64,000 nucleotides of DNA from Iocasia fonsfrigidae (GCF_017751145.1 NZ_CP046640.1:3514137-3578136); one strand, 5' to 3'. Counted from the stretch's first letter, positions 36,213 to 53,281 are shown. The notes: a model not told the origin generated them from the letters alone. Translations and numbers: made by a program.

Positions 36213-36261
36213 ATAATTATCAAATTATCACTATAAAAATATAATTTTTTGGTAATTATCA

Positions 36262-36834: not shown

Positions 36835-36876
36835 TAAATTCACTCCTTAGTTAAAAATTAAGTTAAGTAAAGTAAA

Positions 36877-37204: not shown

Positions 37205-37242
37205 GTACCATGTTACAGTACATAAATGAGGTGAGTATAAAA

Positions 37243-40200
37243 ATGACTGCAGAATGTAAATTAAATGAAAATGCCAGAAAAGTACTTGAGAGTAGATACC
37301 TTAAAAAAAATACAGAGGGAGAAATAATAGAAAGCCCTGATGAAATGTTTAGGCGGGTGGCCAAAAATATAGCAGAAGCCAACCTTAAATATGATGAAGA
37401 CCCGGCAGATGATGAAGAGAATTTCTATAAAATAATGAAAAACCTTGATTTTTTGCCTAATTCACCAACATTAATGAATGCTGGTAATGAGCTACAACAA
37501 TTAAGTGCCTGTTTTGTCCTACCTGTCGAAGACAGTATGGACGGTATTTTTGATTCTGTTAAAAATACTGCGTTAATTCAAAAAAGTGGTGGTGGTACAG
37601 GTTTCAACTTCTCCCGTCTAAGACCCAAAAACGACCTTGTTAAAACAACTGGGGGCATTGCTAGTGGACCAATATCTTTTATGAAAATCTTTGATGCAGC
37701 AACTAATACAATCAAACAGGGCGGTAAACGCCGTGGGGCAAATATGGGGATCCTACGGGTAGATCACCCAGATATCATGGATTTTATTACTGCTAAGGAA
37801 GCTGAAGAAAACTTAAATAACTTTAATATCTCAATTGCTGTTACTGATGAATTTATGGAAGCAGTTAAAAAAAACCAGGAATACAAACTAATTAACCCCA
37901 GAAATAATGAGATTACGGGTACTTTACCGGCCTGTAAAGTCTTTGATAAAATTGTCGAAATGGCACATAAAAACGGGGAACCCGGTATAATCTTTATCGA
38001 CGAAATTAATAGACATAACCCCACACCAGGAATAGGTGAAATAGAAAGTACTAATCCTTGTATTACCGGTGATACTTTAATTGCTACTGAGCATGGATTA
38101 ATGCGTTTTGATACATTATTTAAAAAATATAAAGATATAAAAATCAATATTACAACTGATAAAAGAGTTCCCCTTAGTTTAAAAAAAACAGCAAATAGCG
38201 ATAAAACAAATTACCGTCATACTAATATTAATCAAACAGCTACTAATATTTATACTGCCACTAAGATATATAATAATGGTATAAAAGATATTTATAAACT
38301 AATCACTAAAAGTGGTTATGAAATTAAAACTACAGCTGATCACAAATTTCTTACAAATAAGGGGTGGATAGAACTTAGACATTTAAAAAAAGGACATAAA
38401 ATCTTAATACAATCTAATGAAGGAATCTTTCCTAAATCTTATGAATTACCCTTTAAAACTAATAAATTTTATAAAGGAAAAAATGGTAGAAAATATAAGT
38501 ATAATTTCCCTCAAAAATGGTCACTTGAATTAGGACAAATATTAGGCTTTCTTGTAGGAGATGGCTGGCTGAGAAAAGGGGATAAAAATCGCAGGGTTGG
38601 TTTTACCTTCAGCAAAAAAGATTACCAGTTATTAGAATACTTTAAACCTATTATTAATCAAATATATGGTCAAGATATTAAACCTATTAAAAGAAAAAAT
38701 AATACCTATCACCTTTCCTACCACAGTAAATACTTTGTTGAATTTTTTAACAAGCTGGGCGTTAAAGCTGTTAAATCTAATGATAAAGAAGTACCGTCAG
38801 CTATATTTATAGCACCCCGCAAAGCAGTAATAGGCTTTTTACAGGGTATTTTTACAGCAGATGGTACAGTCTCAAATGACGAAATTAAAGGAAATTATTA
38901 TGTAAGATTAACTTCTAAATCATTAAAACTATTAAAACAAGTACAGTTACTTTTAATAAACCTAGGAATTAAATCAAAAATCTATAATAGAAAACGCAAA
39001 GCAGTTAATAACAAATTTATTTATACTAATATTAAAGGGGAAAAAACATGTTATAAAATTGATGGCATCTTATATGAACTACAAATATCTTCTAGCTCTT
39101 TATATGTTTTTGCAGAAAAAATAGGTTTCCTACTTGAACGAAAAGAAAAAATATTAACAAATATCATTTCTAATAAAAATTTAAACCAGGATAAAATGCT
39201 AGATGAAATTAAAGAAATCAAATTTCAGGGCAAGGAAACTGTATATGACCTTACAGAACCTATAACTCATTCATTTATTGCTAATGGATTTGTTGTTCAT
39301 AATTGTGGTGAACAACCTCTTTTACCATATGAAGCATGTAATTTAGGGTCTATAAATCTATCACATATGACTAAAACTAATGAAGTTGACCAAATAATAA
39401 TTGATTATGATAAATTAGCATATACAGTTAAAATTGCTACCTGTTTCCTTGATAATGTCATAGATATGAACAACTATCCCCTGACAAAAATCAAGAAAAT
39501 GGTTGAAAGCAACCGCAAAATTGGCCTGGGGGTAATGGGATGGAGTGATTTGCTGATTAAACTGGGCATCTCATATGCTAGTGAGGAAGCAGTGAACCTG
39601 GCTAGAAAAGTAATGGCCTTTATCAGAAAGACATCTTATGAGCAGTCCAGAGATATTGCTAAACGCAGAGGGTCATTCCCCAATATAGCCGATAGTATTC
39701 ATCAAAAACCGATGCGTAATGCCACTACAACCACTATAGCACCCACTGGAAGTATCAGCATTATAGCTGGCTGCAGTAGTGGTATTGAACCTTTATTTGC
39801 TATAAGCTATGAACGACATGTGCTGGATGATACCATGATAGAAGTTCATCCTATCTTTGAAAAACTGGCTCAAAAGCACAAGTTCTATAGTAAAGAATTA
39901 ATGAAAACAATTGCTAAAAATTCCTCAATACAGGATATAGAAGTCATACCGGATGCTATAAAAAAACTATTTGTAACTGCCCATGATATTGAACCAGTGT
40001 GGCATATTAAAATGCAGGCAGCCTTTCAGAAAGAGGTTGACAATGCAGTCAGCAAAACAGTCAACTTCCATCATCATGCCAGTATTGAAGATGTCCGTAC
40101 TGTTTATACAATGGCCTATGAGCTAAATTGCAAAGGTGTAACCATCTATCGAGATGGCAGCAGGTCAGAACAGGTCTTGTCAACAGGCTTTAAAAACAAA

Positions 40201-40716
40201 GATAGTATTTCCCCTTCTAAAAAAGGTAAACGTCCGCGTCCAAAAATAACCTACGGTACTACAGAAAAAACCATTATCGGCTGTGGGAAACTATATATAA
40301 TTATCAACTCAGATAAACAGGGAGTATGTGAATTGTTTACCACTACTGGAAAGGGCGGCGGCTGTCATGCACAATCTGAAGCAATTAGCCGTCTGGTATC
40401 ACTTGCCCTACGCAGTGGGGTACCACTCCACGAAATAATTGAGCAGTTGAGGGGTATCAGGTGTGAGGCAGCCATGGTTAAAAAGGATGTTAATAACCTA
40501 TCCTGTCCTGATGCAATCGGTCGTGCCCTGGAGAATTTTGTCAACAATACTAAAAATGGCAAAGATATTTATCAAAAACTCAAACCGCAGTTTACTGAAA
40601 AAAATAGTACTGACAGCGAAACAGAAGATACTAACTGTCCTGAATGTGGTGCCCGTATAGAACATGAAGGTGGTTGTGCTGTCTGTAGAAACTGTGGCTG
40701 GTCAAAATGTGGTTGA
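37243..40716 (+). CDS. nrdJ: Adenosylcobalamin-dependent ribonucleotide reductase (class II) containing an intein
   Basis: The precursor of ~1157 residues starts at the ATG at 37243 (GAGGTG upstream). Without the intein it is ~742 residues, normal for NrdJ. Motifs: FLPNSPTLMNAGNELQQLSACFVLPVEDSM, QKSGGGTGFNFSRLRP, KQGGKRRGANMG, ESTNP/CGEQPLLPYEACNLGSIN around the active site, and GLGVMGWSDLL. The C-terminus has a Cys-rich zinc-ribbon-like end (CPECGARIEHEGGCAVCRNCGW). It reduces ribonucleotides to deoxyribonucleotides using B12 and needs no oxygen. No other ribonucleotide reductase gene is in the window, and no cobalamin riboswitch was seen upstream. Confidence 0.95.
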   Translation: MTAECKLNENARKVLESRYLKKNTEGEIIESPDEMFRRVAKNIAEANLKYDEDPADDEENFYKIMKNLDFLPNSPTLMNAGNELQQLSACFVLPVEDSMDGIFDSVKNTALIQKSGGGTGFNFSRLRPKNDLVKTTGGIASGPISFMKIFDAATNTIKQGGKRRGANMGILRVDHPDIMDFITAKEAEENLNNFNISIAVTDEFMEAVKKNQEYKLINPRNNEITGTLPACKVFDKIVEMAHKNGEPGIIFIDEINRHNPTPGIGEIESTNPCITGDTLIATEHGLMRFDTLFKKYKDIKINITTDKRVPLSLKKTANSDKTNYRHTNINQTATNIYTATKIYNNGIKDIYKLITKSGYEIKTTADHKFLTNKGWIELRHLKKGHKILIQSNEGIFPKSYELPFKTNKFYKGKNGRKYKYNFPQKWSLELGQILGFLVGDGWLRKGDKNRRVGFTFSKKDYQLLEYFKPIINQIYGQDIKPIKRKNNTYHLSYHSKYFVEFFNKLGVKAVKSNDKEVPSAIFIAPRKAVIGFLQGIFTADGTVSNDEIKGNYYVRLTSKSLKLLKQVQLLLINLGIKSKIYNRKRKAVNNKFIYTNIKGEKTCYKIDGILYELQISSSSLYVFAEKIGFLLERKEKILTNIISNKNLNQDKMLDEIKEIKFQGKETVYDLTEPITHSFIANGFVVHNCGEQPLLPYEACNLGSINLSHMTKTNEVDQIIIDYDKLAYTVKIATCFLDNVIDMNNYPLTKIKKMVESNRKIGLGVMGWSDLLIKLGISYASEEAVNLARKVMAFIRKTSYEQSRDIAKRRGSFPNIADSIHQKPMRNATTTTIAPTGSISIIAGCSSGIEPLFAISYERHVLDDTMIEVHPIFEKLAQKHKFYSKELMKTIAKNSSIQDIEVIPDAIKKLFVTAHDIEPVWHIKMQAAFQKEVDNAVSKTVNFHHHASIEDVRTVYTMAYELNCKGVTIYRDGSRSEQVLSTGFKNKDSISPSKKGKRPRPKITYGTTEKTIIGCGKLYIIINSDKQGVCELFTTTGKGGGCHAQSEAISRLVSLALRSGVPLHEIIEQLRGIRCEAAMVKKDVNNLSCPDAIGRALENFVNNTKNGKDIYQKLKPQFTEKNSTDSETEDTNCPECGARIEHEGGCAVCRNCGWSKCG
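38059..39303 (+). mobile_element. LAGLIDADG intein inserted at the NrdJ active-site cysteine
   Basis: A 415-residue in-frame insert begins with Cys1 (CITGDTLIATEHGLM, block A) and has TTADHKFLTNKGWIELRHLKKG (block B with the T-x-x-H). Two homing-endonuclease helices follow, ILGFLVGDGWL and VIGFLQGIFTADGTV, and it ends in VYDLTEPITHSFIANGFVVHN (blocks F and G) before extein Cys+1. The insertion splits NP from CGEQ, directly before the predicted thiyl-radical cysteine. The insert is lysine-rich and slightly more AT-rich than the exteins. Both splicing and endonuclease motifs look intact. Confidence 0.94.
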
Positions 40717-40954: not shown

Positions 40955-41392
40955 TTAAAGATTCTCTATCTCTGTTTCTTTTTCGTCTTTATTTGTAAAT
41001 TTCCCAACAGATATAAATAAACTAAAAATAATTATTAGGGCAGCTGCCACAGCTATATCATAAATCCCATACCCTATTGCCATCCCTAAACCAGAAACTC
41101 CCCAGAGACCAGCTGCTGTTGTCAAACCTTCAATTTTATCTTCTTGTTTAATAATTGTCCCTGCCCCAAGAAAGCCAATCCCACTTACTATCTGAGCCGC
41201 TATACGTCCGGGATCTGCGCCTGTATCTTTTCCTACCTCCATAGATAATAACATAATCAAACATGAAGTAACCGCTACAATTATATTCGTTCTTATTCCA
41301 GCCGCCTTATTCCTCTTCTCTCTGTCCAGTCCTATTAAGGCAGCCAAAAATGCCGATAAGAACAATTTAAATACATTTTCCCAGACTATCAT
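40955..41392 (-). CDS. mgtC: MgtC/SapB family membrane protein
   Basis: The 145-residue protein starts at the ATG at 41392, with AAAGAGGAG 8 nt upstream overlapping the ABC ATPase stop. It has four or five hydrophobic helices and the MgtC signature LAALIGLDREKRNKAAGIRTNIIVA, then GADPGRIAAQIVSGIGFLGAGTIIK and GLTTAAGLWGVSGLGMAIG. The C-terminal soluble domain of long MgtC proteins is missing. MgtC affects Mg2+ adaptation and ATP synthase in some bacteria. Here it is the last gene of an FbpABC-like operon, which suggests a link to metal or anion homeostasis. Confidence 0.92.
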   Translation of the reverse strand: MIVWENVFKLFLSAFLAALIGLDREKRNKAAGIRTNIIVAVTSCLIMLLSMEVGKDTGADPGRIAAQIVSGIGFLGAGTIIKQEDKIEGLTTAAGLWGVSGLGMAIGYGIYDIAVAAALIIIFSLFISVGKFTNKDEKETEIENL

Positions 41393-41397
41393 TCTAC

Positions 41398-42483
41398 TCA
41401 CTCCTCTTTGATTAAATGAATATCTTCCTTAGCAAAATAAATATCTACCTCTTCTCCTACATTAAATATATACTTATGCCGGGGATTAGTCAAATGAACT
41501 GTAATCAGATTACCTTTATAATCTAATATATATTCAAAATAGGAACCAAGATATGTTTTTCTTATGACTTTAGCCTGTAAAAAACCTTTACCTTTTTTCT
41601 CTAGGCTGATTGACTCTGGACGTAAGACAATAACTACTGATTCACCTACAGCTAAATCTTCTGTTTCCTCCATATTTATCACTTTGTCATCAATTACTAG
41701 CTGAATACTATTGTTCTGTCCCTCTTCTACCTGAGTAGGTAGAAAATTTACCTTGCCAATAAAATCAGCTACAAACTTGCTTCGTGGGTAATAATAGATC
41801 TCTTCTGGGGTCCCAACCTGCTCAATCTTTCCTCTATTCATAACTACTATTTTATCAGAAATACTCATTGCCTCTATTTGATCATGCGTAACATAAAGAG
41901 AGGTAATAGACAAGCGTTTCTGTAACTTCCGTATCTCATCCCGCATTGACTCCCTTAATTTAGCATCAAGATTAGACAGTGGTTCATCAAATAATAATAC
42001 TTTAGGTTCTACAATAAGGGCTCTGGCCAGAGCAACCCGCTGCTGTTGTCCCCCTGATAACTCTCCTGGATTTCTAGAACCAAATCCTTCTAAACCCACT
42101 AGTTGCATAATTTCTTCTGCCTTTTGGGATATGGCTATTTTACTCATCTTTTTAAAACGCAGACCATAGGTAATGTTATCCACCACAGTCATATGTGGAA
42201 AAAGCCCATAACTCTGAAAAACCATGGCCGTATTTCTTTTATTGGCCGGTATATTAACTACATCCTTACCATCCAAATATATCTCTCCACTTGTCGCTGT
42301 TTCAAACCCAGCTACCATCCTTAAAGTCGTTGTTTTACCACACCCTGAAGGCCCAAGCAGTGTAACAAGTTCCCCCTCTTTTATTTTTAATTGAAAATTA
42401 TCCACCGCAGTCACCTTTTCAGTTGACTGTTTTGATTGAAATACCTTTCTAATATTTTTTAATTCAACAGCAATATTCTGCAT
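41398..42483 (-). CDS. fbpC: ABC transporter ATPase, FbpC/PotA-like
   Basis: The 361-residue ATPase has Walker A GPSGCGKTT, Q-loop VFQSYGLFPHM, signature LSGGQQQR, Walker B VLLFDEPLSNLDAK and the H-loop VTHDQ. The C-terminal ~110 residues form a TOBE-type domain (SVVIVLRPESISL, LGSYFEYILDYKGNLI). It powers the importer formed with the long permease upstream. The MOI-type (iron, 2-aminoethylphosphonate, thiamine, polyamine) subfamily fits; the Fe3+ label is by analogy. The spacing to mgtC shows coupling. Confidence 0.88.
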   Translation of the reverse strand: MQNIAVELKNIRKVFQSKQSTEKVTAVDNFQLKIKEGELVTLLGPSGCGKTTTLRMVAGFETATSGEIYLDGKDVVNIPANKRNTAMVFQSYGLFPHMTVVDNITYGLRFKKMSKIAISQKAEEIMQLVGLEGFGSRNPGELSGGQQQRVALARALIVEPKVLLFDEPLSNLDAKLRESMRDEIRKLQKRLSITSLYVTHDQIEAMSISDKIVVMNRGKIEQVGTPEEIYYYPRSKFVADFIGKVNFLPTQVEEGQNNSIQLVIDDKVINMEETEDLAVGESVVIVLRPESISLEKKGKGFLQAKVIRKTYLGSYFEYILDYKGNLITVHLTNPRHKYIFNVGEEVDIYFAKEDIHLIKEE

Positions 42484-42516
42484 TATGTACCTCCTAACTA
42501 AACTTTTTTTGAAATA

Positions 42517-44160
42517 TCAAGTAATCATACCAGCTGACTCCTGGTCATCACCAACAAACTTACTCATCAAATAAAAAACTGTCATAACGATTACAATAAG
42601 TACCAATGATAAAACACTGGCCGCCCCTAGCCGCATAATCTCAGTCTCGGCTAATATCAAAGTACTTAAATGTGTCCACCTGGCAGAAACCAGGAAGATG
42701 ATAGCACTAACAGCAGTCATAGCCCTGACAAAACTATAGGATAACCCTGAAAAAAAAGCTGGTTTAATCAATGGCAGAGTTATTTTAGAAAATGTATAAC
42801 TACTACTTGCCCCTAAATCAGTCGATGCCTCTTCAATAGAAGGGTCGATCTGTCGTAAAGAAGCCACCCCTGACTCAATACCTACCGGCATATTTCTAAA
42901 GATAAAACAAAGAATAATGATTAACCCGGTTCCAGTTAATAAAAATGGCTGCTGATTAAAAGCCAGTATATAGCCAATACCAACTACTGTTCCCGGGACA
43001 GCAAAACTTAAAAGAGATGATAACTGTAAGATATTCTTACCCCAAAAGCTTTTTCTCACTACTAAATAAGCAATAATCATACCTAAAAGACCAGTAAAGG
43101 GTGTAGCTACTCCAGCTAAAAAGATAGTATCTTTAATACTCTCCAAACCAACATCCCAGGCATATTTAAAATGCTCCAGGGTCAAGGAATAGTCAATTCC
43201 CCATAGTTTAAAGAAAGCCCCCATTATTACTGTTAAGTATAATAATAATATAGCAAAGGTTATAAGCAACAAAAATATTATAAACAATTTACGTGTTAAA
43301 GAAGAAACCATATCTTGTTTAGAACCGGTAGGTTTCCCAGTAACAGTAACAAATGATTTCCTGGATACCCAGTACTTCTCTACCATAAAAGCTATTAAGG
43401 CTGGTATAAGTAACATAATTGCCAGGGCTGACCCCCGCGGCAGATTGTACATACCAGTAAATTGCAGATAGGCCTGTACTGAGAGGACATCATAATCCCC
43501 GGCTAACACCATAGGATTAGCAAAATCAGCAATTGAAGTAACAAAAACCAATAACCAGGCACTGGCAATTCCCGGTATGGATAGTGGAAAGGTTACTGAG
43601 CGAAATACATAACCCTTACTACCACCAAGGTTTAAAGCCGCATTCTCCAACTCCGGGCTAATTCTGGCCATAACTCCGGTTAACACCCTATAGGCGATGG
43701 GGAACATCCCCAGAGTCTGGACTATGACCAGTCCATGTAAACCATAAATACTAAAGCCTGTTATCCCTAGCAATTTTTTGGTAATCAGACCGTTTCTCCC
43801 CAATAATAGGATGATAGAGATCGTTAACATAAATGGTGGAGAAATAATTGGCAGCATTACTATCTGACGAAAAAAACCTTTACCTGGTAAGTCTACCTTA
43901 TACAGAATATAAGCAGCAATATACCCGATTATCGTTCCAAAGGTAGCTACCAGGGCACCTAATTTTATACTATTTAGAAAAGTACTCCTCAACCATACCT
44001 TTGATAAAATATATTTATATTCCGCCAAAGAAAAATTACCATCAGGCCTTAAACTTATAATAATTACACGTACAATGGGATAGACAACAAATATCCCAAT
44101 TAAAGCAGCAACAATCATTATTGTAATATTTACTAAAGGATCCTTCCTGGTTTCCATCAT
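42517..44160 (-). CDS. fbpB: ABC transporter permease, FbpB-like (fused double permease)
   Basis: The 547-residue protein has about 12 helices made of two permease halves. Each half has an EAA loop (LENAALNLGGSKGYVFRSVTFPLSIPGIA and IEEASTDLGASSSYTFSKITLPLIKPAF). This internal duplication is typical of FbpB/CysU-type iron and thiamine permeases. Tandem ATG codons follow AAAGGGGTGAT. It is located between the binding protein and ATPase genes. Confidence 0.9.
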   Translation of the reverse strand: MMETRKDPLVNITIMIVAALIGIFVVYPIVRVIIISLRPDGNFSLAEYKYILSKVWLRSTFLNSIKLGALVATFGTIIGYIAAYILYKVDLPGKGFFRQIVMLPIISPPFMLTISIILLLGRNGLITKKLLGITGFSIYGLHGLVIVQTLGMFPIAYRVLTGVMARISPELENAALNLGGSKGYVFRSVTFPLSIPGIASAWLLVFVTSIADFANPMVLAGDYDVLSVQAYLQFTGMYNLPRGSALAIMLLIPALIAFMVEKYWVSRKSFVTVTGKPTGSKQDMVSSLTRKLFIIFLLLITFAILLLYLTVIMGAFFKLWGIDYSLTLEHFKYAWDVGLESIKDTIFLAGVATPFTGLLGMIIAYLVVRKSFWGKNILQLSSLLSFAVPGTVVGIGYILAFNQQPFLLTGTGLIIILCFIFRNMPVGIESGVASLRQIDPSIEEASTDLGASSSYTFSKITLPLIKPAFFSGLSYSFVRAMTAVSAIIFLVSARWTHLSTLILAETEIMRLGAASVLSLVLIVIVMTVFYLMSKFVGDDQESAGMIT

Positions 44161-44177
44161 ATCACCCCTTTGTAAGG

Positions 44178-44211
44178 TATAACAGATAAAGAATAACCCC
44201 TATCTGTTATA
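44178..44211 (-). other. Intercistronic hairpin between binding protein and permease genes
   Basis: TATAACAGATA pairs with TATCTGTTATA around a 12-base loop and there is no T-run. Such hairpins stabilise the upstream binding-protein message, giving more binding protein than permease. Confidence 0.5.
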
Positions 44212-44226
44212 CACATGTATTTAAAA

Positions 44227-45219
44227 CTAGTGCTGACTATATACTTCCTCATTCCATTTTTCAACAAGCCGCTCTTTGTTATTTCCTGCCCAGACATCAT
44301 CCTGGTCAATGGTATTTACTTCACTAATTGGTACTGCCCCATCCATTAATTTAACATCACGGAAGGGTACTACATAGAAACTAGCATATATCTCAGCAGC
44401 CTTTTTACTTAATAACCAATTATAGAGTTCTTTAGCAAGTTCAGTCTCTTTACCGTTCTTAATCAAGGAGATTGATGCCACTTCATAACCCCCCCCTTCT
44501 TCCGGAAAAGTAATTACTAATGGGTAACCCTGTGCCTTTAGTTTTACCTGGTCATGTGCATAGCCAATACCTATTGGTACCTCTCCAATAGCAGCATTCT
44601 TACCTGGCTTAGAACCAGAACGGGTATACTGTACTATGTTTTTATCAAGTTTTTTCATATATTCAAAGCCCTCTTCTTCACCCATTAGCTGCACCATAGT
44701 TGCCAGAACATTGTATGAAGTACCAGAAGTCCCTGGATTAGCAACCTGAATATAACCTTCATATTCTGGTTTAATTAAATCTGCCCAGGATGTAGGTGCT
44801 GCTAACCCTAATTCCTCTAAACGCTGGGTATTACTTACAAAACACAATGGCCCGGCATAGATACCCATCCAATAGTTATCTTCATCTTTAAAATTATCAG
44901 GTACATATTGGGCATTTTCTGCCACATAAGGAATGGTTAAACCACTATCTTTGGCCTGAATATGCCCTAAACCTACTCCTCCTACCCAAATACTGGCCTG
45001 AGGGTTGTTCTTTTCAGCCATCATCCTGGAGACCGCTTCTCCAGTTGACAGGCGTACCCATTCTATCTTTACCCCGGTCTCAGCAGTATACTCATTAAAT
45101 ACCACACGCGCCAATTGTTCATCCAGACTGGTATAAACACTGATACTATCAGCCAGAACAGTTAAATTAAACAGACCTATCATTAGACAAAGCAACATTA
45201 CAACAGAAAACTTTTTCAT
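44227..45219 (-). CDS. fbpA: ABC transporter substrate-binding protein, FbpA-like
   Basis: The ~330-residue protein starts with a signal peptide (MKKFSVVMLLCLMIGLFNLTVLADS) and no lipobox. The body has the type II binding fold of iron/2-AEP binding proteins: ISVYTSLDEQLARVVFNEYTAETGVKIEWVRL, WVGGVGLGHIQAKDSGL, WMGIYAGPLCFVSN, GTSGTSYNVLATMVQLMG and VPIGIGYAHDQVKLKAQGYPL. Ligand residues cannot be assigned. It is the first gene of the operon, divergent from the DUF2294 cassette. It is clearly a paralogue of the orphan binding protein at 46467. Confidence 0.88.
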   Translation of the reverse strand: MKKFSVVMLLCLMIGLFNLTVLADSISVYTSLDEQLARVVFNEYTAETGVKIEWVRLSTGEAVSRMMAEKNNPQASIWVGGVGLGHIQAKDSGLTIPYVAENAQYVPDNFKDEDNYWMGIYAGPLCFVSNTQRLEELGLAAPTSWADLIKPEYEGYIQVANPGTSGTSYNVLATMVQLMGEEEGFEYMKKLDKNIVQYTRSGSKPGKNAAIGEVPIGIGYAHDQVKLKAQGYPLVITFPEEGGGYEVASISLIKNGKETELAKELYNWLLSKKAAEIYASFYVVPFRDVKLMDGAVPISEVNTIDQDDVWAGNNKERLVEKWNEEVYSQH

Positions 45220-45332
45220 CACAATAACTCCTCCTTATCATTTTTGAAATTCTTAAAATTAAGTTACCACAATTTACTTTCTCACACAATATTCAAAAGT
45301 TTAAATTGTTTTCCCCCTTTTTTTTAGACCTT

Positions 45333-45412
45333 AAAAAAACTAGCTTTTTGTCTAAAAAATAAGATTTAAGCTTAGAAAATTGTTAGACATTTATACTTTT
45401 GGCTAGTTTTTT
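45333..45412. promoter_or_regulatory. Bidirectional attenuator-like hairpin in the divergent region
   Basis: Outer stem AAAAAACTAGC (45334-45344) with GCTAGTTTTTT (45402-45412) encloses an inner stem GTCTAA (45350-45355)/TTAGAC (45383-45388). Both strands end in a T-run, so the same hairpin could terminate leaders of both divergent operons, fbpABC-mgtC and the DUF2294 cassette. Confidence 0.5.
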
Positions 45413-45496: not shown

Positions 45497-45871
45497 ATGA
45501 ATAAAAGTAAAGGACAAATTGAAGCTGAAATATCAGAACTAATTATGAAATTTGAAAAGGAATATATTGGTCGTGGACCTCAAAATATTAAAACTTATAT
45601 TATACATGATAATATCCTTGTTAAAGAAAAAGGCGTCCTAACAATGGCCGAACAACAACTGGCCAAAGAAGAAGACGGTATAAAACTAATTAAACAGCTG
45701 CGAGTTAAACTCATTGAAAATTCCCGTGAGATATTAGCTACCTTGATAAAAGATATTACCACCATAGATGTCTTAGCTGTTCATTCAGATATCAGTACCG
45801 AAAACGGGGAACGGATTATAGTTTTCTCTCTGTCAGATGACCTGGAGAAAAAATTGAAAATTAAAACTTGA
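45497..45871 (+). CDS. DUF2294 (MpsC-like) protein 1
   Basis: The 124-residue protein starts at the ATG at 45497 (AGGTGG six bases upstream; a GTG at 45488 overlaps that site). It follows the DUF2294 pattern: EISELIMKFEKEYIGRGPQNIKTYIIHDNILV, VLTMAEQQLAKEEDGIKLIKQLR and IDVLAVHSDISTENGERIIVFSL. Proteins of this family were named MpsC in a cation-translocating system of Staphylococcus, but for most members the role is unknown. It has no membrane segment. It is followed by a structured region and a second DUF2294 gene. Confidence 0.82.
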   Translation: MNKSKGQIEAEISELIMKFEKEYIGRGPQNIKTYIIHDNILVKEKGVLTMAEQQLAKEEDGIKLIKQLRVKLIENSREILATLIKDITTIDVLAVHSDISTENGERIIVFSLSDDLEKKLKIKT

Positions 45872-45932
45872 TTTTTGCCCAAAATGATGTTAAAATAGTT
45901 ATACAATTTAGAATTTAAATGGTTAACTAGTT

Positions 45933-46032
45933 AGATAGCAAACTGCCTCTTAAGGTAGCGGGTTATCTGAAGAGCAAACCATCATCTTTTAATATCCTGA
46001 TAAGGGATATTTATTTGGTGATGGTTTTTTTA
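45933..46032 (+). ncRNA. Structured RNA element with terminator between the two DUF2294 genes
   Basis: Hairpin 1: AGATA (45933-45937)/TATCT (45964-45968) enclosing CTGCC/GGTAG with a GCAAA and CGGGT internal loop. Hairpin 2: AAACCATCA (45976-45984)/TGATGGTTT (46019-46027) enclosing AATATCC/GGATATT and followed by T6. The first hairpin placed before a terminator, ~60 bp ahead of the next gene, suggests a riboswitch-like leader. It may instead be an elaborate terminator of the first DUF2294 gene. Confidence 0.5.
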
Positions 46033-46089
46033 ATGATGTAGGAAATAATTATAGAAATACCTTATCTATTAATAAAGGAGATGAGATTT

Positions 46090-46467
46090 ATGGAGCAGGC
46101 TAAAGAAGCAAAACATAATAAATCTAAAATGTCAACTGCTGAGGAAAAAATCTGCAATATCTTTAAAAACTTTGAAAAAAACTACTGGGGAAAAAAATCC
46201 CATCAAATAGAAACCTATTTAATTAGAGATATCATCGTTCTCCGCAGCCAGGGTAATCTAAGCCCTGCAGAAGAACAACTTGCCAGAACAGAAGAAGGAA
46301 AGGTATTAATTAAACAGTTAAAGGTAAAAGAACTAAGCAGTATTAAAAACATTTTGAAGTTTCACCTGGAAAATAAACTAAATTTACAGGTTTTGTCTCT
46401 GGTAATTGATAACAACCCTGAACTAGACGAAACAATTATTGTCTGCCGTCTTAATAAGGAGTTATAA
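46090..46467 (+). CDS. DUF2294 (MpsC-like) protein 2
   Basis: The 125-residue product starts at the ATG at 46090 (AAAGGAG nine bases upstream; the ATG at 46081 abuts the site). It resembles protein 1: FKNFEKNYWGKKSHQIETYLIRDIIVL, NLSPAEEQLARTEEGKVLIKQLKV and ETIIVCRLN. The G-R-G-P of protein 1 is replaced by G-K-K-S. It overlaps the binding-protein gene by one base (TAATG), so the two are translated together, which ties this domain directly to the binding protein. Confidence 0.8.
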   Translation: MEQAKEAKHNKSKMSTAEEKICNIFKNFEKNYWGKKSHQIETYLIRDIIVLRSQGNLSPAEEQLARTEEGKVLIKQLKVKELSSIKNILKFHLENKLNLQVLSLVIDNNPELDETIIVCRLNKEL

Positions 46468-47492
46468 TGTTTAAAAAAATTATTTGTATCTCACTTATTA
46501 TCACAGGCCTCTTTACTGCAAGAGGAATAACTGCCGACAATAAACTAGTTATCTATACAGCACTGCAAGAAAGAGAAGCCCAGGTTTATGCTCAGGCATT
46601 TGAAAACTATACCGGTATAAAAGTTAAAACAATTAGAAAATCGACCGGGGTACTATTAAACCTACTTAGACGGGGAAAAAATTACCGGCCAGGTGTAGAT
46701 GTGCTACTAGGCGGGCCAGCTGAATTTTATTATTTAGCAAATAAGGAAGGTCTTTTTGAACAATACAATTCATCATTAACTAAGAAGATACCGCAAGAAT
46801 ATAGAGACCTGGAAAACCATTGGTGGGGAATCTATCTCGGCTCAATTGGTTTTGCCGTTAATCCAGTTGCACTGCAAAAATTAAATTTAAAACCACCTAT
46901 GACCTGGCTTGACCTGGCTTCACCGAAATATAAAGGTCTAATTACTATCCCTAACCCAGTTTCATCAGGCACTGGTTATACAATATTATCTACGATAATT
47001 CAATTGTACGGCCTGGATGAAGGGATTCAACTACTTAAGAAAATAAATAGCAATGTTCAAAATTATACCAATAGTGGTGCTATGGCCAGTAAATTAACGG
47101 GAATTAATGCTTCTACTATCGGTATCTCTTTTAGCCATGATATCCAGAAATTCAAACAACAAGGTTATCCTATCAACCTTATTCTTCCCACCGATGGAAC
47201 TGGTTACGAAATTGGCGGCATAGCTATTGTTAAAGATACTAAACACCTTAAACAGGCTAAACAATTTGTCGATTTTATGCTTAGTACAAGGGGTCAAAAA
47301 CTTTACTCAGCTATGAGTGAATATCGCTTGCCTACTAATATTGAGGCCCCTATTCCTGATGGTGCCATTTCCTTTGATAATATTAATGTCATTAACTATA
47401 ACCTAGAGTGGTCCAGTCTGCAGCAAGAAAATATAGCTAACCTCTGGTTAAATGAAGTCTATCTTAGGGGGAAAACAAATGAAAGCAATTAA
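46467..47492 (+). CDS. Orphan FbpA-like extracellular binding protein
   Basis: The 341-residue secreted protein has a signal peptide (KKIICISLIITGLFTARGITA) and a fold like the FbpA-type protein of the divergent operon: LVIYTALQEREAQVYAQAFENYTGIKVKTIR, VDVLLGGPAEFYYLANKEGLF, WWGIYLGSIGFAVN, NPVSSGTGYTILSTIIQLYG and STIGISFSHDIQKFKQQGYP. No permease or ATPase belongs to its own operon. It is coupled to DUF2294 protein 2 upstream and overlaps the HAMP/DUF4388 membrane protein gene downstream by 14 bp. A sensing role, presenting ligand to that membrane protein, is inferred. Confidence 0.85.
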   Translation: MFKKIICISLIITGLFTARGITADNKLVIYTALQEREAQVYAQAFENYTGIKVKTIRKSTGVLLNLLRRGKNYRPGVDVLLGGPAEFYYLANKEGLFEQYNSSLTKKIPQEYRDLENHWWGIYLGSIGFAVNPVALQKLNLKPPMTWLDLASPKYKGLITIPNPVSSGTGYTILSTIIQLYGLDEGIQLLKKINSNVQNYTNSGAMASKLTGINASTIGISFSHDIQKFKQQGYPINLILPTDGTGYEIGGIAIVKDTKHLKQAKQFVDFMLSTRGQKLYSAMSEYRLPTNIEAPIPDGAISFDNINVINYNLEWSSLQQENIANLWLNEVYLRGKTNESN

Positions 47493-48825
47493 ACTCCCTT
47501 TTTATTTAAAACTAAGCATTATTATTTCTGTTTTAATAATAACTATTGTCACTGGTATATCCTATACCCTATTAACAGAGATTAAGACAGAATACCGCAA
47601 TCAAATAAAAACTACCAGTAGTTTACTGGCCACCCTTATTGTTAAATACAGTGTAGAACCAGTAGTCATGGAAAATTACACTACTTTATATAATATTATA
47701 GATAGTGTTAAGGAAGACCCTGGTAGTGATATTATGCAGATTTCAATCCTCGGTCCTGATGGTTATATTAAAGCCTCTACCAATCGCTTAATCGAAGGCA
47801 GTAAATTAACATCAAATCAAATAGAAAATAACAGCAGTACTTTTGTTTTTAAAAAAAATTACCTTGATGTATTAGCCCCTATTACTGCTTATGATAATCT
47901 CTGGGGATATCTCAATTTTAGATATTCCCTCTCAGGATTAGAGAAATTATTTTTATCAACCCAATATCAAATACTATTACTAGCTTTAATATTTATTGCT
48001 ATCGGATTAATTACCGCTTTATTTGTTGCTAAAGCAATTGTTAAACCAATTAATATCCTGGTTAAGAGTTCCCAGGAAATAGCTCAGGGTGATTTCCATA
48101 ACCCTATTTCAATTAAAACCAGGGATGAATTTAGTTTTTTAGGAGAGACACTGGAAGAAATGAGAATTAGCTTAAAATGCTTTGTCAGTGGTGTTGCTAA
48201 AAAAGCAATTAGTTATGAAGGAAATCTTAAAATATTTGCCCTACCAACATTATTAAGACTGTTAAATAATACCAACCATACCGGGGGGTTAGTTTTAAAA
48301 AAGGAAAATGACATTGGAATTATCTATTTTAGCAAAGGTGAAATTACTGACGCTTATCTAAAAACCAGCAGAGGTAAAAAAGCCGTCTTTGATTTTTTCA
48401 CCTGGTCTGAAGGTGACTTTAAATTTAGCCCCAGTATAAAAAGCAGAGAAAAAACTATCAATGAAGCTTTTAATGACTTAATTCTGGAGGCTGTTAGACA
48501 GGTTCAGGATCATAATATATTTAAACAAGCACTCCCAGCTAAAGACATGACCATAATTCCAGCTATAGCAAATGTGTATAAATTAGCAGATGAAATCAAC
48601 CTTAACTCAGATGAAGAAAAAATACTTAATTGTATCCAACACAAGAGTTCTATTAATGACTTAAGAAAATCCCTGACCTGGCCTAATGGAAAAATATATG
48701 AAATCATTTACCGTCTAATTTCCTTAGGTTTAGTCTCTATTGAATCGGAAGAAAACTTAAATAATTATTTAATAGAAAAAGACATGGAAAAAATTATTAC
48801 CTTTCCTGGTAAAAAGATTATGTGA
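47479..48825 (+). CDS. Membrane signalling protein: sensor domain, HAMP, DUF4388 (PATAN)
   Basis: The 448-residue protein starts at the ATG at 47479 (TAGGGGG upstream). TM1 is at ~11-31, a ~130-residue extracytoplasmic single-Cache-like domain follows (ILGPDGYIKASTNRLIEGSKL), then TM2 (ILLLALIFIAIGLITALFVA) and HAMP (KPINILVKSSQEIAQGDFHNPI). The DUF4388/PATAN region reads GNLKIFALPTLLRLLNNTNHTGGLVLKKE, YFSKGEITDAYLK and FTWSEGDFKFSP. The C-terminal ~70 residues resemble a winged helix (EEKILNCIQHKSSINDLRKSL). It has no kinase, cyclase or MCP output. PATAN domains are thought to be protein-interaction modules. Confidence 0.78.
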   Translation: MKAIKLPFYLKLSIIISVLIITIVTGISYTLLTEIKTEYRNQIKTTSSLLATLIVKYSVEPVVMENYTTLYNIIDSVKEDPGSDIMQISILGPDGYIKASTNRLIEGSKLTSNQIENNSSTFVFKKNYLDVLAPITAYDNLWGYLNFRYSLSGLEKLFLSTQYQILLLALIFIAIGLITALFVAKAIVKPINILVKSSQEIAQGDFHNPISIKTRDEFSFLGETLEEMRISLKCFVSGVAKKAISYEGNLKIFALPTLLRLLNNTNHTGGLVLKKENDIGIIYFSKGEITDAYLKTSRGKKAVFDFFTWSEGDFKFSPSIKSREKTINEAFNDLILEAVRQVQDHNIFKQALPAKDMTIIPAIANVYKLADEINLNSDEEKILNCIQHKSSINDLRKSLTWPNGKIYEIIYRLISLGLVSIESEENLNNYLIEKDMEKIITFPGKKIM

Positions 48826-48843
48826 AAAATAGAGGTGATTTTA

Positions 48844-49626
48844 ATGATGATATCCAATTTAAATAACTCCTGGGTAAGGTGTTTTAAAATGGGGCTTCCT
48901 AAACAACTAGAACATCCCCAGTACTATGCCGATAGTTTTATATTGGATAAAGAATCAAAAAAGCACCTCTCACTAATACAAAACTTTACTAAATATGTTA
49001 ATAAAATAACTGATGAATATTACCTTGAAAACAGTCTTTTTATATTAGCAAATCAACAGGGGATTAATTTAAAAACTGTCTATCCCATAGGTCTAAAAGA
49101 GAAAGTCAGCAAAATGAGAATAAAAGAAGGCTGTTATTTTACCGAAAAAAGCTGTGGAACCAATGCTATCTCAATGGCAATGGAGTATAAAGAAACCGTT
49201 GTTTTTAATGGAGATGAAAACTATTGTTATTTTTTACATAAATGGCAAAGTATTGCTACGCCAATTAACTATCCTAAAGATAAACAATGCTTTCTTGGTA
49301 TCTTAACCCTGGATAAAAATCACAGAGAAAAATATCGTATTCTTCTAGAACTGCTGCAAACAAAGTTAAGCAAGAAACTGAATGAAAACACAATTCCATC
49401 CCATTACAATCAGGGTAAGTCCTTAACAAACATCAGAGAATCAGTGCTTACCCTGTCAGCCAATGGCTTAACAATCAAGGAGATTAGCCAGAAATTAAAT
49501 CTTTCCGAAGCAGCCATTAAATATCACCGCACCAAAGCCTGTCAACAACTATGTGCGGCTAATATTACTCAGGCAATAGCTAAATCTATCAAGTTTGGTT
49601 ATATAAGTCTAAATACAATTAAATAG
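48844..49626 (+). CDS. GAF-type sensor with LuxR-family helix-turn-helix
   Basis: The ~260-residue protein starts at ATG 48844 with AGAGGTG upstream. Residues ~60-170 follow the N-terminal GAF domain of AcoR/DhaR-type regulators: GCYFTEKSCGTNAISMAMEYKETVVFNGDENY and WQSIATPINYPKDKQCFLGILTLD. The C-terminal domain is a LuxR-type HTH (LTLSANGLTIKEISQKLNLSEAAIKYHRTKACQQL). The central AAA+ domain of AcoR is absent, so it is a sigma-70-type regulator rather than a sigma-54 activator. It is 18 bp after the PATAN gene and is the likely output of the cassette. Confidence 0.8.
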   Translation: MMISNLNNSWVRCFKMGLPKQLEHPQYYADSFILDKESKKHLSLIQNFTKYVNKITDEYYLENSLFILANQQGINLKTVYPIGLKEKVSKMRIKEGCYFTEKSCGTNAISMAMEYKETVVFNGDENYCYFLHKWQSIATPINYPKDKQCFLGILTLDKNHREKYRILLELLQTKLSKKLNENTIPSHYNQGKSLTNIRESVLTLSANGLTIKEISQKLNLSEAAIKYHRTKACQQLCAANITQAIAKSIKFGYISLNTIK

Positions 49627-50348
49627 AAATACCTCTTGTATCCTGGTTCCAATATTTTCAGAATTACTGCTCTTATAAATAATACCATCTTCATTAAATA
49701 ATTTTACAGTAAGATCCTCTATTAAAGTCTCACTTACATTTTCCCATAATAGGCCAGATCTACTCCCATGACATAATAAGCAATAATTTCATCCCTACCA
49801 TTATATACAGGGGCTTGCTGCTGGATATAATTATTATTATACTGAAAAACATCAGCAGCTGTTGCAACTTTATACTCTTTTTCCGTAAGTTTAACCCCTA
49901 TATATTTATCAAAATCCTTATCTTTAACATAACCCGAATCTGCCAGAACTGTTCCCCAGGTGGATGTTATGTAAGTATAATCAGCACTTGAAGCATTTAC
50001 ATGTGCCTGTAATTCCTGACTCACGGGTTCAACCCTATAGGCTGTATTACTTGATAATTCCTCAGCCAAATTCTCCTCATCTGTATATGCAAAAAACATT
50101 GCATGGGTCTTAACTTTATCATTTAAAGTGAAATTCTCTACTTCAGTTTTTAAATTATTCAAAGTCATATTAAGACTATTTTTTTGGGCTTCTTTTGTAA
50201 TTCTAATTTTATCACTAATTTCACCCTGAACCATATGTATAGTATAATTATAGGTTGTATAAGAAACAATTGATAAAATAATCATTATAAATAAAGTAAT
50301 AATTATGCTTATACACCATCTCAACCCTATTTTATTCAACACATTCAT
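49609..50348 (-). pseudogene. Truncated, frameshifted receptor (dCache sensor fragment)
   Basis: The reading frame 49734-50348 encodes TM1 (RWCISIIITLFIMIILSIVSY) and part of a Cache domain, ending in VDLAYYGKM-stop. One base back, the next frame continues NVSETLIEDL, TVKLFNEDGIIYKSSNS and ENIGTRIQEV before a stop at 49609. This matches how dCache receptors continue after VDL. Restoring one A in AAAA near 49740 would join the two. No second TM, HAMP or MCP hairpin follows, so even the repaired product is truncated. The end overlaps the GAF-LuxR gene by 18 bp in antisense. Confidence 0.6.
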
Positions 50349-50514: not shown

Positions 50515-51153
50515 TTATATAATAGTCTTAATTGAATCAGCCATTGTTTGCAGTATTAGATTACAGGAAGTAGCACCAGCATCAAGCACACCCCGGGATC
50601 TTTCACCCAATCTAGCTGCACGCCCTACTTTTGCAACCATATCTTTTGTTGAATCCTTACCCTTTTCAGCGGCTTCCTGCATCAAATTCAGAGATTCTTT
50701 AAAGTTCTTTCTCTCATTACAGGCCTTATCGTAAGCCTCAACAGCAGGTATTAATGTATCCATCAAAGTCTTATCCCCAACTTTGGCATTACCAATATTC
50801 TTTAATCCATCACAGGCCTCGTTCAGCATCTTTGAAAATATATCTTGTTTAATTTCTTCTTCACCAGTAGTCACTTTTGACATTCTCAAAAAGAAAGTAC
50901 CATATAATGGACCCATCGACCCACCAATCTCTGTCATAAGTGTCATACCTAAAGTCTTTAATCCCTCTGTTAAATCCATATTTTTCTCTCTTAGTTTGTG
51001 CTCTGTCTTTGTAAAACCTTTATTCATATTAATACCATGGTCTCCATCACCAATTGCACCATCAATTTCACTCAGGTATTCTTTATTGTCCTGGATTGTT
51101 GCAATTAAGTTATAAACGATCTTGATACCATCCCTGTTAGAAAATGTACTCAT
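50515..51153 (-). CDS. dhaL: Dihydroxyacetone kinase-type subunit DhaL (possibly erythrulose kinase)
   Basis: The 212-residue helical ADP/ATP-binding subunit starts at the ATG at 51153 (TAGGGGGTGAAG upstream). Mg/ATP motifs: EIDGAIGDGDHGINMNKG, GGSMGPLYGTFF, GDKTLMDTLIPA and GRAARLGERSRGVLDAGATS. It works with DhaK, the gene 4 bp upstream. No DhaM phosphotransferase gene is seen in the window, so the pair may use ATP directly, as in single-chain kinases and the LerK/DerK-type tetrulose kinases. It is last in the polyol operon. Confidence 0.93.
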   Translation of the reverse strand: MSTFSNRDGIKIVYNLIATIQDNKEYLSEIDGAIGDGDHGINMNKGFTKTEHKLREKNMDLTEGLKTLGMTLMTEIGGSMGPLYGTFFLRMSKVTTGEEEIKQDIFSKMLNEACDGLKNIGNAKVGDKTLMDTLIPAVEAYDKACNERKNFKESLNLMQEAAEKGKDSTKDMVAKVGRAARLGERSRGVLDAGATSCNLILQTMADSIKTII

Positions 51154-51157
51154 ATCT

Positions 51158-52162
51158 TCACCCCCTAAACTGTTTGAAACCCATACTGTCTGCTTCTTCA
51201 TCAATTAATTCTTTTAATTCATCATCAAGTTTCATAACCGTCAATGTAGCACCCATCATCTCAAGTGAAGTAAAGTAATCACCTACATATGGTTTATATA
51301 TACTAATACTTTTTTCAGCTAATAATTCTTCCATTTTATTGTACAGTATATATAATTCCATTACCGGTGTTGCACCAAGCCCTGATACCAGGACAACAAC
51401 TTCATCACCTTTTTCAAATGGCAGGTCGGGTAAAACTGTATCAACCATAATTTCTGCAACTTCATTAGCTGTTTTAAGATTGGTAACCTCAATACCAGGT
51501 TCACCGTGATGACCTATACCAACTTCCATCTTACCATCTTCTATAGTAAAGTTAGGTTTACCAACCTCCGGGATTACACAGGATGTCAAACCCACACCAA
51601 TACTTCTGGTATTATCTATAGCTTTCTGAGAAACCCTGATTACATCATCAAGATCAGCACCCTTTGCAGCCATAGCACCACCTATTTTCCACATCAGTAC
51701 CTCACCGGCAACTCCCCGTCTATCTTCAAGTTTATCTTTTGGTGCTGAAGGTACATCATCATTAGCAACAACAGTCTTGACCTCAATGCCATCAGCCTCA
51801 GCCATCTCTATAGCCATCTTTACATTCATATTGTCTCCAGCATAATTACCGTAAAGACAGGCAACACCTCTGCCAGAATCAGCTTCTTTAAAAGCATTAA
51901 AGAAAGCCATAGCTGTAGGAGAGGAAAAGATTTCACCTACCGCAACTGCATCTACCATATTCTTTCCTAAATAGCCAACAAAAGCTGGTTTATGACCAGA
52001 ACCCCCACCAGTAACTACCCCAACTTTATTTTCCACAGGTGCCTCTTTGTATTTGATAACCCTTGAATCATCTGTAGCTACTACCAGATCCTTATGGGCC
52101 CTGACAAAGCCCTTCAACATATCTTCTACTACTTCATCAGCTTTATTAATAAATCTCTGCAT
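51158..52162 (-). CDS. dhaK: Dihydroxyacetone kinase-type subunit DhaK (possibly erythrulose kinase)
   Basis: The 334-residue substrate-binding subunit shows VVTGGGSGHKPAFVGYLGKNMVDAV near the N-terminus, NYAGDNMNVKMA, the substrate-hemiaminal His in VGIGHHGEPGIE, and LVSGLGATPVMELY. It forms a covalent His adduct with a C3 or C4 ketose and phosphorylates it with DhaL. The neighbouring polyol dehydrogenase, an RpiB-like isomerase and a sugar ABC importer argue for a tetrulose substrate rather than dihydroxyacetone (inference). TAGGAGG precedes the ATG. Confidence 0.93.
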   Translation of the reverse strand: MQRFINKADEVVEDMLKGFVRAHKDLVVATDDSRVIKYKEAPVENKVGVVTGGGSGHKPAFVGYLGKNMVDAVAVGEIFSSPTAMAFFNAFKEADSGRGVACLYGNYAGDNMNVKMAIEMAEADGIEVKTVVANDDVPSAPKDKLEDRRGVAGEVLMWKIGGAMAAKGADLDDVIRVSQKAIDNTRSIGVGLTSCVIPEVGKPNFTIEDGKMEVGIGHHGEPGIEVTNLKTANEVAEIMVDTVLPDLPFEKGDEVVVLVSGLGATPVMELYILYNKMEELLAEKSISIYKPYVGDYFTSLEMMGATLTVMKLDDELKELIDEEADSMGFKQFRG

Positions 52163-52207
52163 CTATTGAACCTCCTATCATTTTTCTACAATATAATTAA
52201 TTTATAA

Positions 52208-53281
52208 CTAGGGAACTAAAACAACTTTTATAGAATCCTCCCCACTTTCTGCAAGTTGAAATGCCTTTTCCCATTCATCTAAAGATAATTTATGTGTTAC
52301 TACACCCTCTGTCGGTAATGAGCCATCACCAATCCATTCTATTACTGGTTGATAACAATGTGGACTCAAGTGAGCACCTAATAAATCCAGTTCTTTTCTA
52401 TCACTAATAATGCTCCAGTCTGCTGTAACTAAGTCCTTAAATACACTAAATTCAACAAATGTACCCAGTTTACGTATAGCTTCAAGTCCCTGTTGAACAC
52501 TTGCAGGGTGACCAGTAGCTTCAATATAAACATCACATCCATAACCCTCTGTTAGTTCCAGTGTTTTTTCTACTACATTCTCTTTGGCTGGATTCATAAC
52601 TATATCAGCACCAAACTCTTTTGCTAATTTTAATCTATCTTCTTTTAGATCCAGTACAATTAAAGTCTTAGGATTTCTTAATTTTATAGCACCTACCATA
52701 CCTAGACCCAGGGTCCCTGCACCGGATAATACAACTACATCCTCATTACCAATATCTGCCCTATCAACAGCATGTTTTGAACAGGCATATGGTTCTACCA
52801 GAACAGCTTTTTCTATTGGTATATCCTCTGGTACCTTATAATTCAAAGACTCCTTCGGGAATTTCATGTATTCAGCCATTCCCCCATTTACATTATTCTG
52901 GAAACCGTAAACATCATGTTTTTGACACATCCAGTGTCTACCTGTATCACAGAATTTACAATCCCAGCAGGGAACAATCTGTTCAGATATAACCCTATCT
53001 CCAATTTTGAAATTCCCCTTAACATTTTCTCCCATCTCTACAATTTCACCTATAAATTCATGGCCGGGGATCATTGGTGCTTTAATATATGGTGGATTAC
53101 CTTCACCACCCCAGAAACTTGGAGCCCCATGATATGCTTTAATATCACCCGCACAAACTCCACAGGCCTCTACCTTAATTACTATTTCCCCCTCACCTGC
53201 CCGGGGTACATCTACCTTTTCAAGACGGTAATCTCCAGGTGCATATGCAACTAATGCCTTCATTTTTTCTGGTAAACTCAT
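52208..53281 (-). CDS. Zinc-dependent alcohol/polyol dehydrogenase (MDR family)
   Basis: The 357-residue protein is an MDR enzyme: VEACGVCAGDIKAYHG (catalytic Zn Cys), MIPGHEFIGEIVEMGE, four structural-Zn cysteines in VPCWDCKFCDTGRHWMC, VEPYACSKHAVDRA and the NAD-binding VVLSGAGTLGLGMVG. It probably oxidises a polyol (tetritol-like) to the ketose used by DhaKL. The sequence alone does not fix substrate, and threonine or sorbitol dehydrogenase-like activity remains possible. GAAGGAGGAG precedes the ATG. It sits between the ATPase gene and dhaK in one minus-strand unit. Confidence 0.88.
   Translation of the reverse strand: MSLPEKMKALVAYAPGDYRLEKVDVPRAGEGEIVIKVEACGVCAGDIKAYHGAPSFWGGEGNPPYIKAPMIPGHEFIGEIVEMGENVKGNFKIGDRVISEQIVPCWDCKFCDTGRHWMCQKHDVYGFQNNVNGGMAEYMKFPKESLNYKVPEDIPIEKAVLVEPYACSKHAVDRADIGNEDVVVLSGAGTLGLGMVGAIKLRNPKTLIVLDLKEDRLKLAKEFGADIVMNPAKENVVEKTLELTEGYGCDVYIEATGHPASVQQGLEAIRKLGTFVEFSVFKDLVTADWSIISDRKELDLLGAHLSPHCYQPVIEWIGDGSLPTEGVVTHKLSLDEWEKAFQLAESGEDSIKVVLVP

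Follow-up and report, generated by a model that had tools for sequence, protein, structure and literature searches.

A conserved mpsC-led gene cassette of Iocasia fonsfrigidae with a predicted attenuator RNA, and recurrence of this layout behind mpsC genes of Bacillota

The window analysed here is a stretch of 64,000 nucleotides of the genome of Iocasia fonsfrigidae (GCF_017751145.1, NZ_CP046640.1:3514137-3578136), and the subject of this study is a cassette of five plus-strand genes in it (Table 1), encoding two MpsC (DUF2294) proteins, a solute-binding protein (SBP2), a membrane protein with HAMP and DUF4388/PATAN domains and a GAF-LuxR regulator. All five genes are present where a preliminary description of the window had placed them, with the overlaps it reported between mpsC2 and SBP2 (1 nt) and between SBP2 and the HAMP-DUF4388 gene (14 nt). 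The cassette diverges, as also described there, from an ABC importer with an MgtC-family gene (40955-45222), the binding protein of which (SBP1) is a paralogue of SBP2. The membrane protein is composed of two hydrophobic segments, an extracellular domain, HAMP, DUF4388/PATAN and a C-terminal stretch with weak winged-helix matches. No kinase, methyl-accepting chemotaxis protein, GGDEF or EAL domain was found in it, in agreement with the earlier view that it lacks a kinase or chemoreceptor output, but the Cache domain once ascribed to it has no Pfam support; its AlphaFold2 (AF2) model is poor (predicted local distance difference test, pLDDT, 45) and was not used. In the LuxR regulator, the helix-turn-helix (HTH) is the best-conserved part. 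The gap between mpsC1 and mpsC2 measures 218 bp to the likely mpsC2 start at 46090 and 209 bp to an upstream ATG at 46081; the attenuator RNA predicted in this gap and the phylum-wide association of such RNAs with mpsC were overlooked in the preliminary description.

Conservation of the gene order beyond the source genome, which the preliminary description had named as the test of its reading, was found: three genera in two families keep the whole arrangement. It is made up of mpsC1, mpsC2, SBP2, HAMP-DUF4388 and LuxR opposite SBP1, permease and ATPase, and occurs in I. fonsfrigidae, in G032 (locus L021) and in G017 (locus L022; JADQBT010000006.1, Halanaerobiales metagenome-assembled genome Soudan_29), i.e., in 3 of 59 genomes of the class, and the DUF4388 part has an orthologue only in these three. 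A contig search for further cassettes yielded one locus, that of G017, and a plasmid search none. Tight coupling is retained in both relatives, with overlaps of 4/11 nt (L021) and 17/8 nt (L022). Identity to the orthologues is highest for mpsC1 (86-87%), followed by SBP1 and permease (81-84%) and the ATPase (68-69%), and amounts to 43-61% for the other four proteins (SBP2, HAMP-DUF4388 and LuxR, 43-59%; SBP2 alone, 53-59%). The gene order is well supported, and neither its conservation nor the divergence of the cassette is due to chance. An MgtC-like open reading frame (ORF) follows the AfuC-like ATPase gene also in L021; none stands beside it in L022.

The gap between mpsC1 and mpsC2 very probably encodes a transcription attenuator, as judged from the predicted folds. 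A rod-like antiterminator hairpin and an intrinsic terminator are mutually exclusive, bases 45976-45980 being common to both, and the minimum-free-energy fold of the nascent prefix is the same rod in all three loci. Fold z-scores of the RNA range from -3.1 to -5.2. An alignment of the three loci comprises 18 pairs with 92.6% of cells paired and changes in both partners of 7 pairs (26-51% paired and 0-1 such pairs in slid controls), covariation that rests on three sequences only, the changes nonetheless being compensatory. The alternative hairpins and their conservation may thus be regarded as well supported. Strong matches to the cassette RNA are confined to these 3 loci among the 59 class genomes; weak matches of model R1 in other genomes looked like terminators and were discarded. 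Rfam 15 holds no known riboswitch or leader class matching the locus RNA at gathering score.

Table 1. Coordinates of cassette genes, predicted RNA elements and neighbouring features, counted from the first nucleotide of the window
Feature	Position	Strand	Remarks
mpsC1 (DUF2294/MpsC)	45497-45871	+	PF10057, 117.2 bits (cut-off 23); AF2 pLDDT 90
Predicted antiterminator hairpin, a rod (P1-P2-P3) interrupted by small internal loops	45921-45980	+	3' arm AGCAAACC overlaps terminator 5' arm
Predicted intrinsic terminator AAACCATCATC...GGTGATGGTTTTTTT	45976-46031	+	conserved in L021 and L022
mpsC2 (DUF2294), divergent second MpsC, first gene past the attenuator	46090-46467	+	77.5 bits (cut-off 23)
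SBP2, secreted binding protein of the AfuA/P5PA clade without own permease, presumed sensor	46467-47492	+	SBP_bac_6, 1.6e-30
HAMP-DUF4388/PATAN membrane protein	47479-48825	+	HAMP 3e-11, DUF4388 4e-19
GAF-like and LuxR-HTH regulator	48844-49626	+	GerE 5e-10; N-terminal part like DhaR N-terminus
TTTATACTTTTG, matching element toward mpsC1	45390-45401	+	
TTTAAACTTTTG, candidate operator/promoter element toward importer	45294-45305	-	
SBP1 (AfuA-like)	44227-45222	-	orthologue identity 81-84%
AfuB-like fused permease	42517-44160	-	
AfuC-like ATPase	41398-42483	-	
MgtC-family protein	40955-41401	-	
XRE(HTH_3)-MpsC fusion, third MpsC of the window, outside the cassette	36262-36843	-	
Attenuator-like RNA immediately behind the XRE-mpsC gene, GUUGGAAGAUCAGC...GAGCCAAUACCUUA followed by terminator	36062-36142	-	matches the model weakly (15.4 bits, E 0.5)

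MpsC is present in 83 of the 398 Bacillota genomes sampled (E 1e-20), and the recurrence of the attenuator layout directly after mpsC across this phylum is well supported by comparison of the gene ends. A first strong terminator with a competing upstream antiterminator is predicted at 43 of 78 mpsC ends, as compared to 11 of 128 other genes taken from these loci as controls (odds ratio 13, p=3e-13); counted by genus, 29 of 56 mpsC ends and 7 of 48 controls have the competing hairpin (p=7e-5). Small internal loops, rich in purines and mostly 2x2, interrupt these rod-like hairpins, and the RNA often starts 0-25 nt past the mpsC stop. A second form of the RNA ("flavour A"), GUUGRCAG...GAARGGUAU...AUACCAGUC...GGUCAACA followed by a terminator, is found after other mpsC genes; its pattern has 7 matches in the 59 class genomes, one per genome and all directly after standalone mpsC, while the reversed control pattern has zero there. 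Covariation of flavour A (22 sequences; an 11-sequence subset was also examined) amounts to 95.7% of cells paired, with changes in both partners of 10 out of 13 pairs and 8-44% paired in slid controls. The structures had been picked from folds of these very sequences, a choice that raises the share of paired cells more than the number of compensatory pairs. Flavour-A loci have no match in Rfam 15 at gathering score. The flavour-A covariance model R3, trained on mpsC-adjacent copies, reports 32 matches in the phylum (two weak, two left uninspected), 21 of which, many of these being training sequences, lie within about 300 nt after a listed mpsC, as read by eye from the coordinates; an in-frame TAG interrupts one of the 21 mpsC genes. 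In Acetoanaerobium noterae (NZ_CP154629.1), a match of 36.5 bits directly follows mpsC, the order being mpsC, RNA and an MFS-like gene.

Genes for the consumption, transport or formation of CO2, bicarbonate or formate often follow these RNAs. First genes behind mpsC include those for SbtA, phosphoenolpyruvate (PEP) carboxylase (PEPcase_2), PEP carboxykinase (PEPCK), AIRC/PurE, PurK, biotin carboxylase, oxaloacetate decarboxylase beta (OAD_beta), carbon monoxide dehydrogenase (CODH) epsilon followed by POR, formate transporter (FNT) and FdhD, several group members being assigned to these families by sequence likeness to one scanned member. The RNA of L190 precedes genes for an AIRC-domain protein and PEP carboxylase. 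On a plasmid of Anoxybacillus amylolyticus, DUF2294 is followed at 135 bp by a bicarbonate permease, hairpins being seen there as well, and in Staphylococcus pettenkoferi DabA is followed one gene later by DUF2294. No obvious fit is seen for other products, among them alcohol dehydrogenases, transporters of amino-acid and citrate type, DUF4914 and proteins without assigned role. A signal linked to CO2 or bicarbonate is proposed with some reserve, the odds lying slightly against it. Two groups of proteins encoded behind mpsC-RNA (L134, L143-L149 and L169; L110, L112 and L114) belong to no Pfam family as far as scanned (L143; L110 and L112) and represent candidates for new CO2-related functions. 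In the SbtA leader of L059 (genome G026), the RNA is retained in its 5' part but the terminator is lost.

MpsC occurs both standalone and fused to an XRE HTH (in the window at 36262-36843, and in L057), and the fusions are likewise followed by such RNA; because of these fusions, MpsC is favoured as a regulatory domain. That MpsC is the effector of the attenuator may be rated an even chance. No function of MpsC is reported in the literature searched, and MpsC1 was not found in viral contigs. Structural candidates for MpsC1 (an FtsK subdomain and TRAPP/Bet3-type chains; VIA Z up to 7.7) did not exceed background. In the window, the XRE-mpsC gene and its RNA (36062-36843, minus strand) lie upstream of a gene for a 612-aa protein without Pfam match, with a CheA-type kinase gene further on.

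SBP1 and SBP2 share 30-33% identity. The nearest solved relatives of both are AfuA (hexose-6-phosphate; 4r72), P5PA (6wce) and 8x1a, at E-values of about 1e-46 to 1e-59; the best matches outside the AfuA/P5PA clade reach 2e-19 (SBP2) and 1e-15 (SBP1). The FbpA-like, iron-related reading given to these proteins in the preliminary description was not borne out, and iron uptake is rejected because both fall into this sugar-phosphate/pyridoxal-phosphate clade; FbpA/HitA chains score far below AfuA in E-value, a residue-by-residue comparison of iron ligands not being part of this test. Ligand residues of AfuA are His205, Asp206, Glu229, Thr150 and Ser37 (PMC4546632). The sugar residues His205, Asp206 and Glu229 are aligned in SBP1 of all three loci and in SBP2 of two, and the phosphate residues Thr150 and Ser37 (as Thr) are kept in SBP1 and SBP2; P5PA likewise carries Thr37 (PMC8427247). 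In total, five of the six orthologues retain the complete set; the presence of AfuA-type ligand residues is well supported. Other members of the class encode a 62%-identical importer with a GntR regulator and a HAD phosphatase as neighbours (L091). Next to more distant importers, a phosphonate-type binding protein is encoded, accompanied by a kinase and a sigma-54 response regulator in L092 and by an alkaline phosphatase and a response regulator in L093. Given the AfuA clade, the kept ligand residues and the phosphatase and kinase neighbours of related importers, the ligand of both binding proteins is likely to be a phosphorylated solute.

The window contains two copies of the motif TTTAWACTTTTG where 0.17 would be expected, a statistic that is optimistic because the pattern was defined from these same copies. 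Both are located in the divergent intergenic region, one oriented toward the importer and the other toward mpsC1. Three further copies in the genome (5 in total) are located inside ORFs. Both relatives retain a copy in the same orientation (<=1 mismatch) toward each divergent gene. The pair represents a candidate promoter element or LuxR-protein site.

Taken together, the following mechanism may be proposed. From the divergent promoter, mpsC1 would be transcribed, and the leader RNA downstream of it would fold either as rod-like antiterminator or as intrinsic terminator. Only upon stabilisation of the antiterminator would mpsC2, SBP2, the HAMP-DUF4388 protein and GAF-LuxR be made, the stabilising factor most likely being MpsC1 acting on its own transcript in a PyrR-like manner and responding to a signal connected with CO2, bicarbonate or one-carbon (C1) status. 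SBP2 would then capture a phosphorylated solute outside the cell in an HptASR-like manner, the HAMP-DUF4388 protein would pass the signal across the membrane via protein contact rather than phosphotransfer, and GAF-LuxR would act on the promoter region common to both divergent units and hence on the AfuABC-like importer. We assign a probability of about 0.55 to this mechanism as a whole, i.e., an MpsC-stabilised attenuator gating an HptASR-like sensor operon. For the flow from SBP2 via HAMP-DUF4388 and GAF-LuxR to the importer, which we infer, the prospects are evenly balanced. More tentatively, one may speculate that MpsC and its leader RNA constitute a new CO2/bicarbonate-responsive antitermination system of Bacillota, with MpsC forming a new regulator family that binds RNA (or is RNA-assisted), and that the window holds two such modules, one of them gating a kinase-less HptASR-like sugar-phosphate sensor.

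Several observations weigh against the proposed mechanism. About half of the mpsC ends have no detected attenuator, and R3 reports nothing at 45919-46031 up to E 1; because of the latter, membership of the cassette RNA in the family rests on architecture and position. The CO2/C1 theme among the downstream genes was judged without a formal background rate, and the cassette's own downstream genes are not CO2 genes. The MpsC1 model yields no significant fold match (best Foldseek E 8e-3), the protein is slightly acidic (pI 5.6-6.2; MpsC1 and MpsC2 together span 5.2-9.3), and deletion of mpsC in Staphylococcus aureus had no growth phenotype (PMC6689103). SBP2 of G017 has Gln in place of His205 (Gln-Asp). 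Lastly, RNA copies exist apart from intact mpsC: four R3 matches stand beside an mpsC remnant (L179, L192 and L201 by profile, L190 by a tail readable as GEKVIVLTIEEDLEEKIK), the copies of L204, L205 and L206 lie away from mpsC, and one match (L211) is in the class genome G051, which has no MpsC match. The RNA thus does not require an intact mpsC next to it and can persist in its absence. Copies without an intact neighbouring mpsC weaken the model of a protein acting in cis and therefore keep alive the alternative of a riboswitch, in which the leader would bind a metabolite or ion tied to CO2, bicarbonate or carboxylation and MpsC would merely be a co-transcribed companion. The strongly conserved sequence of P1 and of the internal loops as well as the CO2-linked target genes agree with a riboswitch, as do the copies beside decayed mpsC (L179, L190, L192, L201) or without mpsC (L204, L205, L211). 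In most loci, however, the RNA is positioned strictly after mpsC, divergent RNA variants track divergent mpsC, the rod has neither multihelix junction nor pseudoknot, and no Rfam class is matched; a riboswitch is therefore considered rather unlikely, albeit the most serious competitor of MpsC-dependent antitermination.

Less probable still is that SBP2 functions, alongside SBP1, as a substrate receptor for the divergent AfuBC permease, the HAMP-DUF4388/LuxR pair acting elsewhere. Its paralogy to SBP1 would suit such a role, but SBP2 is encoded with the regulators rather than the permease, its gene overlaps that for HAMP-DUF4388 in 3 of 3 loci, and its conservation (53-59%) is well below the roughly 80% of permease and SBP1. 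Translation-coupled attenuation, with the ribosome ending mpsC covering the 5' arm of P1 so that mpsC translation instead of a ligand sets the fold, would accord with the start of P1 at 0-3 nt past the mpsC stop in many loci; it is improbable, since P1 begins 49 nt past the stop of mpsC1 and about 43-47 nt past the mpsC stop in L130, L150 and L151, beyond the ribosome footprint, and much further away in L065, L066 and L068, and since some RNA copies have no mpsC reading frame beside them. The structures might also be ordinary terminators of gene ends, with the competing hairpin as a by-product of A+T-rich sequence. Terminators are indeed common at gene ends (47 of 128 controls), but the enrichment of the competing hairpin at mpsC ends, the compensatory changes and the same internal loops over many families leave this explanation highly improbable.

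A few further features were observed. The RNA copies of L204 and L205 lie upstream of a gene for a NuoE-like [2Fe-2S] protein, mpsC being located elsewhere in those genomes, and an mpsC with in-frame TAG is the second of two tandem copies at G431:C120:11456-11779. Just downstream of the cassette, a 204-aa membrane-anchored sensor-like protein without output domain is encoded (49734-50348, minus strand), possibly a truncated chemoreceptor. Genes for DhaL, DhaK and an alcohol dehydrogenase (50515-53281, minus strand) adjoin the GAF-LuxR gene, the GAF part of which resembles DhaR; DhaK/DhaL (50515-52162) as targets of this regulator were rejected, as they are not beside the cassette in L021 and L022. 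A ribonucleotide-reductase-like gene (37210-40716, plus strand) has an apparent intein (CITGDTLIATEHG ... FIANGFVVHN, then CGEQPLL), recognized by reading alone.

In comparison with known systems, the leader resembles two types of attenuation control. With PyrR, the regulator gene stands first in the transcript, an attenuator precedes the target genes, and antiterminator and terminator compete. The position of mpsC upstream of the RNA fits this scheme; different are MpsC itself, which is unrelated to PyrR, the proposed stabilisation of the antiterminator by the protein, and the RNA, which is unrelated and absent from Rfam. The RAT antiterminators of BglG/LicT are rod hairpins with internal loops that overlap the terminator 5' arm, as does the predicted cassette antiterminator, which differs in being about twice as long and of other sequence, no CAT/PRD protein being encoded in the cassette. 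The MpsABC bicarbonate system shares the family PF10057 and the bicarbonate context with the cassette, and its MpsC had no assigned function (PMC6689103). The present analysis provides this family, so far of unassigned function, with a testable role and adds a structured RNA family that Rfam lacks. It may also serve as a first lead to control of CO2/bicarbonate-linked genes at the RNA level, for which no riboswitch was found in the literature searched. The divergent importer has clade, ligand residues and ABC architecture in common with the hexose-phosphate importer AfuABC (PMC4546632) and differs from it in regulation and neighbourhood. The earlier iron-importer reading is corrected to a sugar-phosphate type, and a putative binding-protein sensor without kinase output is described. 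Since the binding proteins belong to the AfuA/P5PA clade with ligand residues kept, HptASR of S. aureus may be regarded as the closest and best mechanistic analogue of the cassette; the HptA-type chain 6lkg, which we take to be HptA, matches SBP2 at E 1.9e-14. In HptASR, a secreted binding protein senses a phosphorylated sugar and signals to a HAMP membrane protein, the operon being divergent from the transporter under its control (PMC8774646). The cassette likewise encodes binding protein and HAMP membrane protein together and divergent from a transporter, but it is not a member of HptASR because kinase and receiver are absent: in place of HisKA, HATPase and receiver domains it has a DUF4388 protein and GAF-LuxR, SBP2 is nearer to AfuA than to HptA, and the sensor genes are preceded by mpsC genes and the predicted attenuator RNA.

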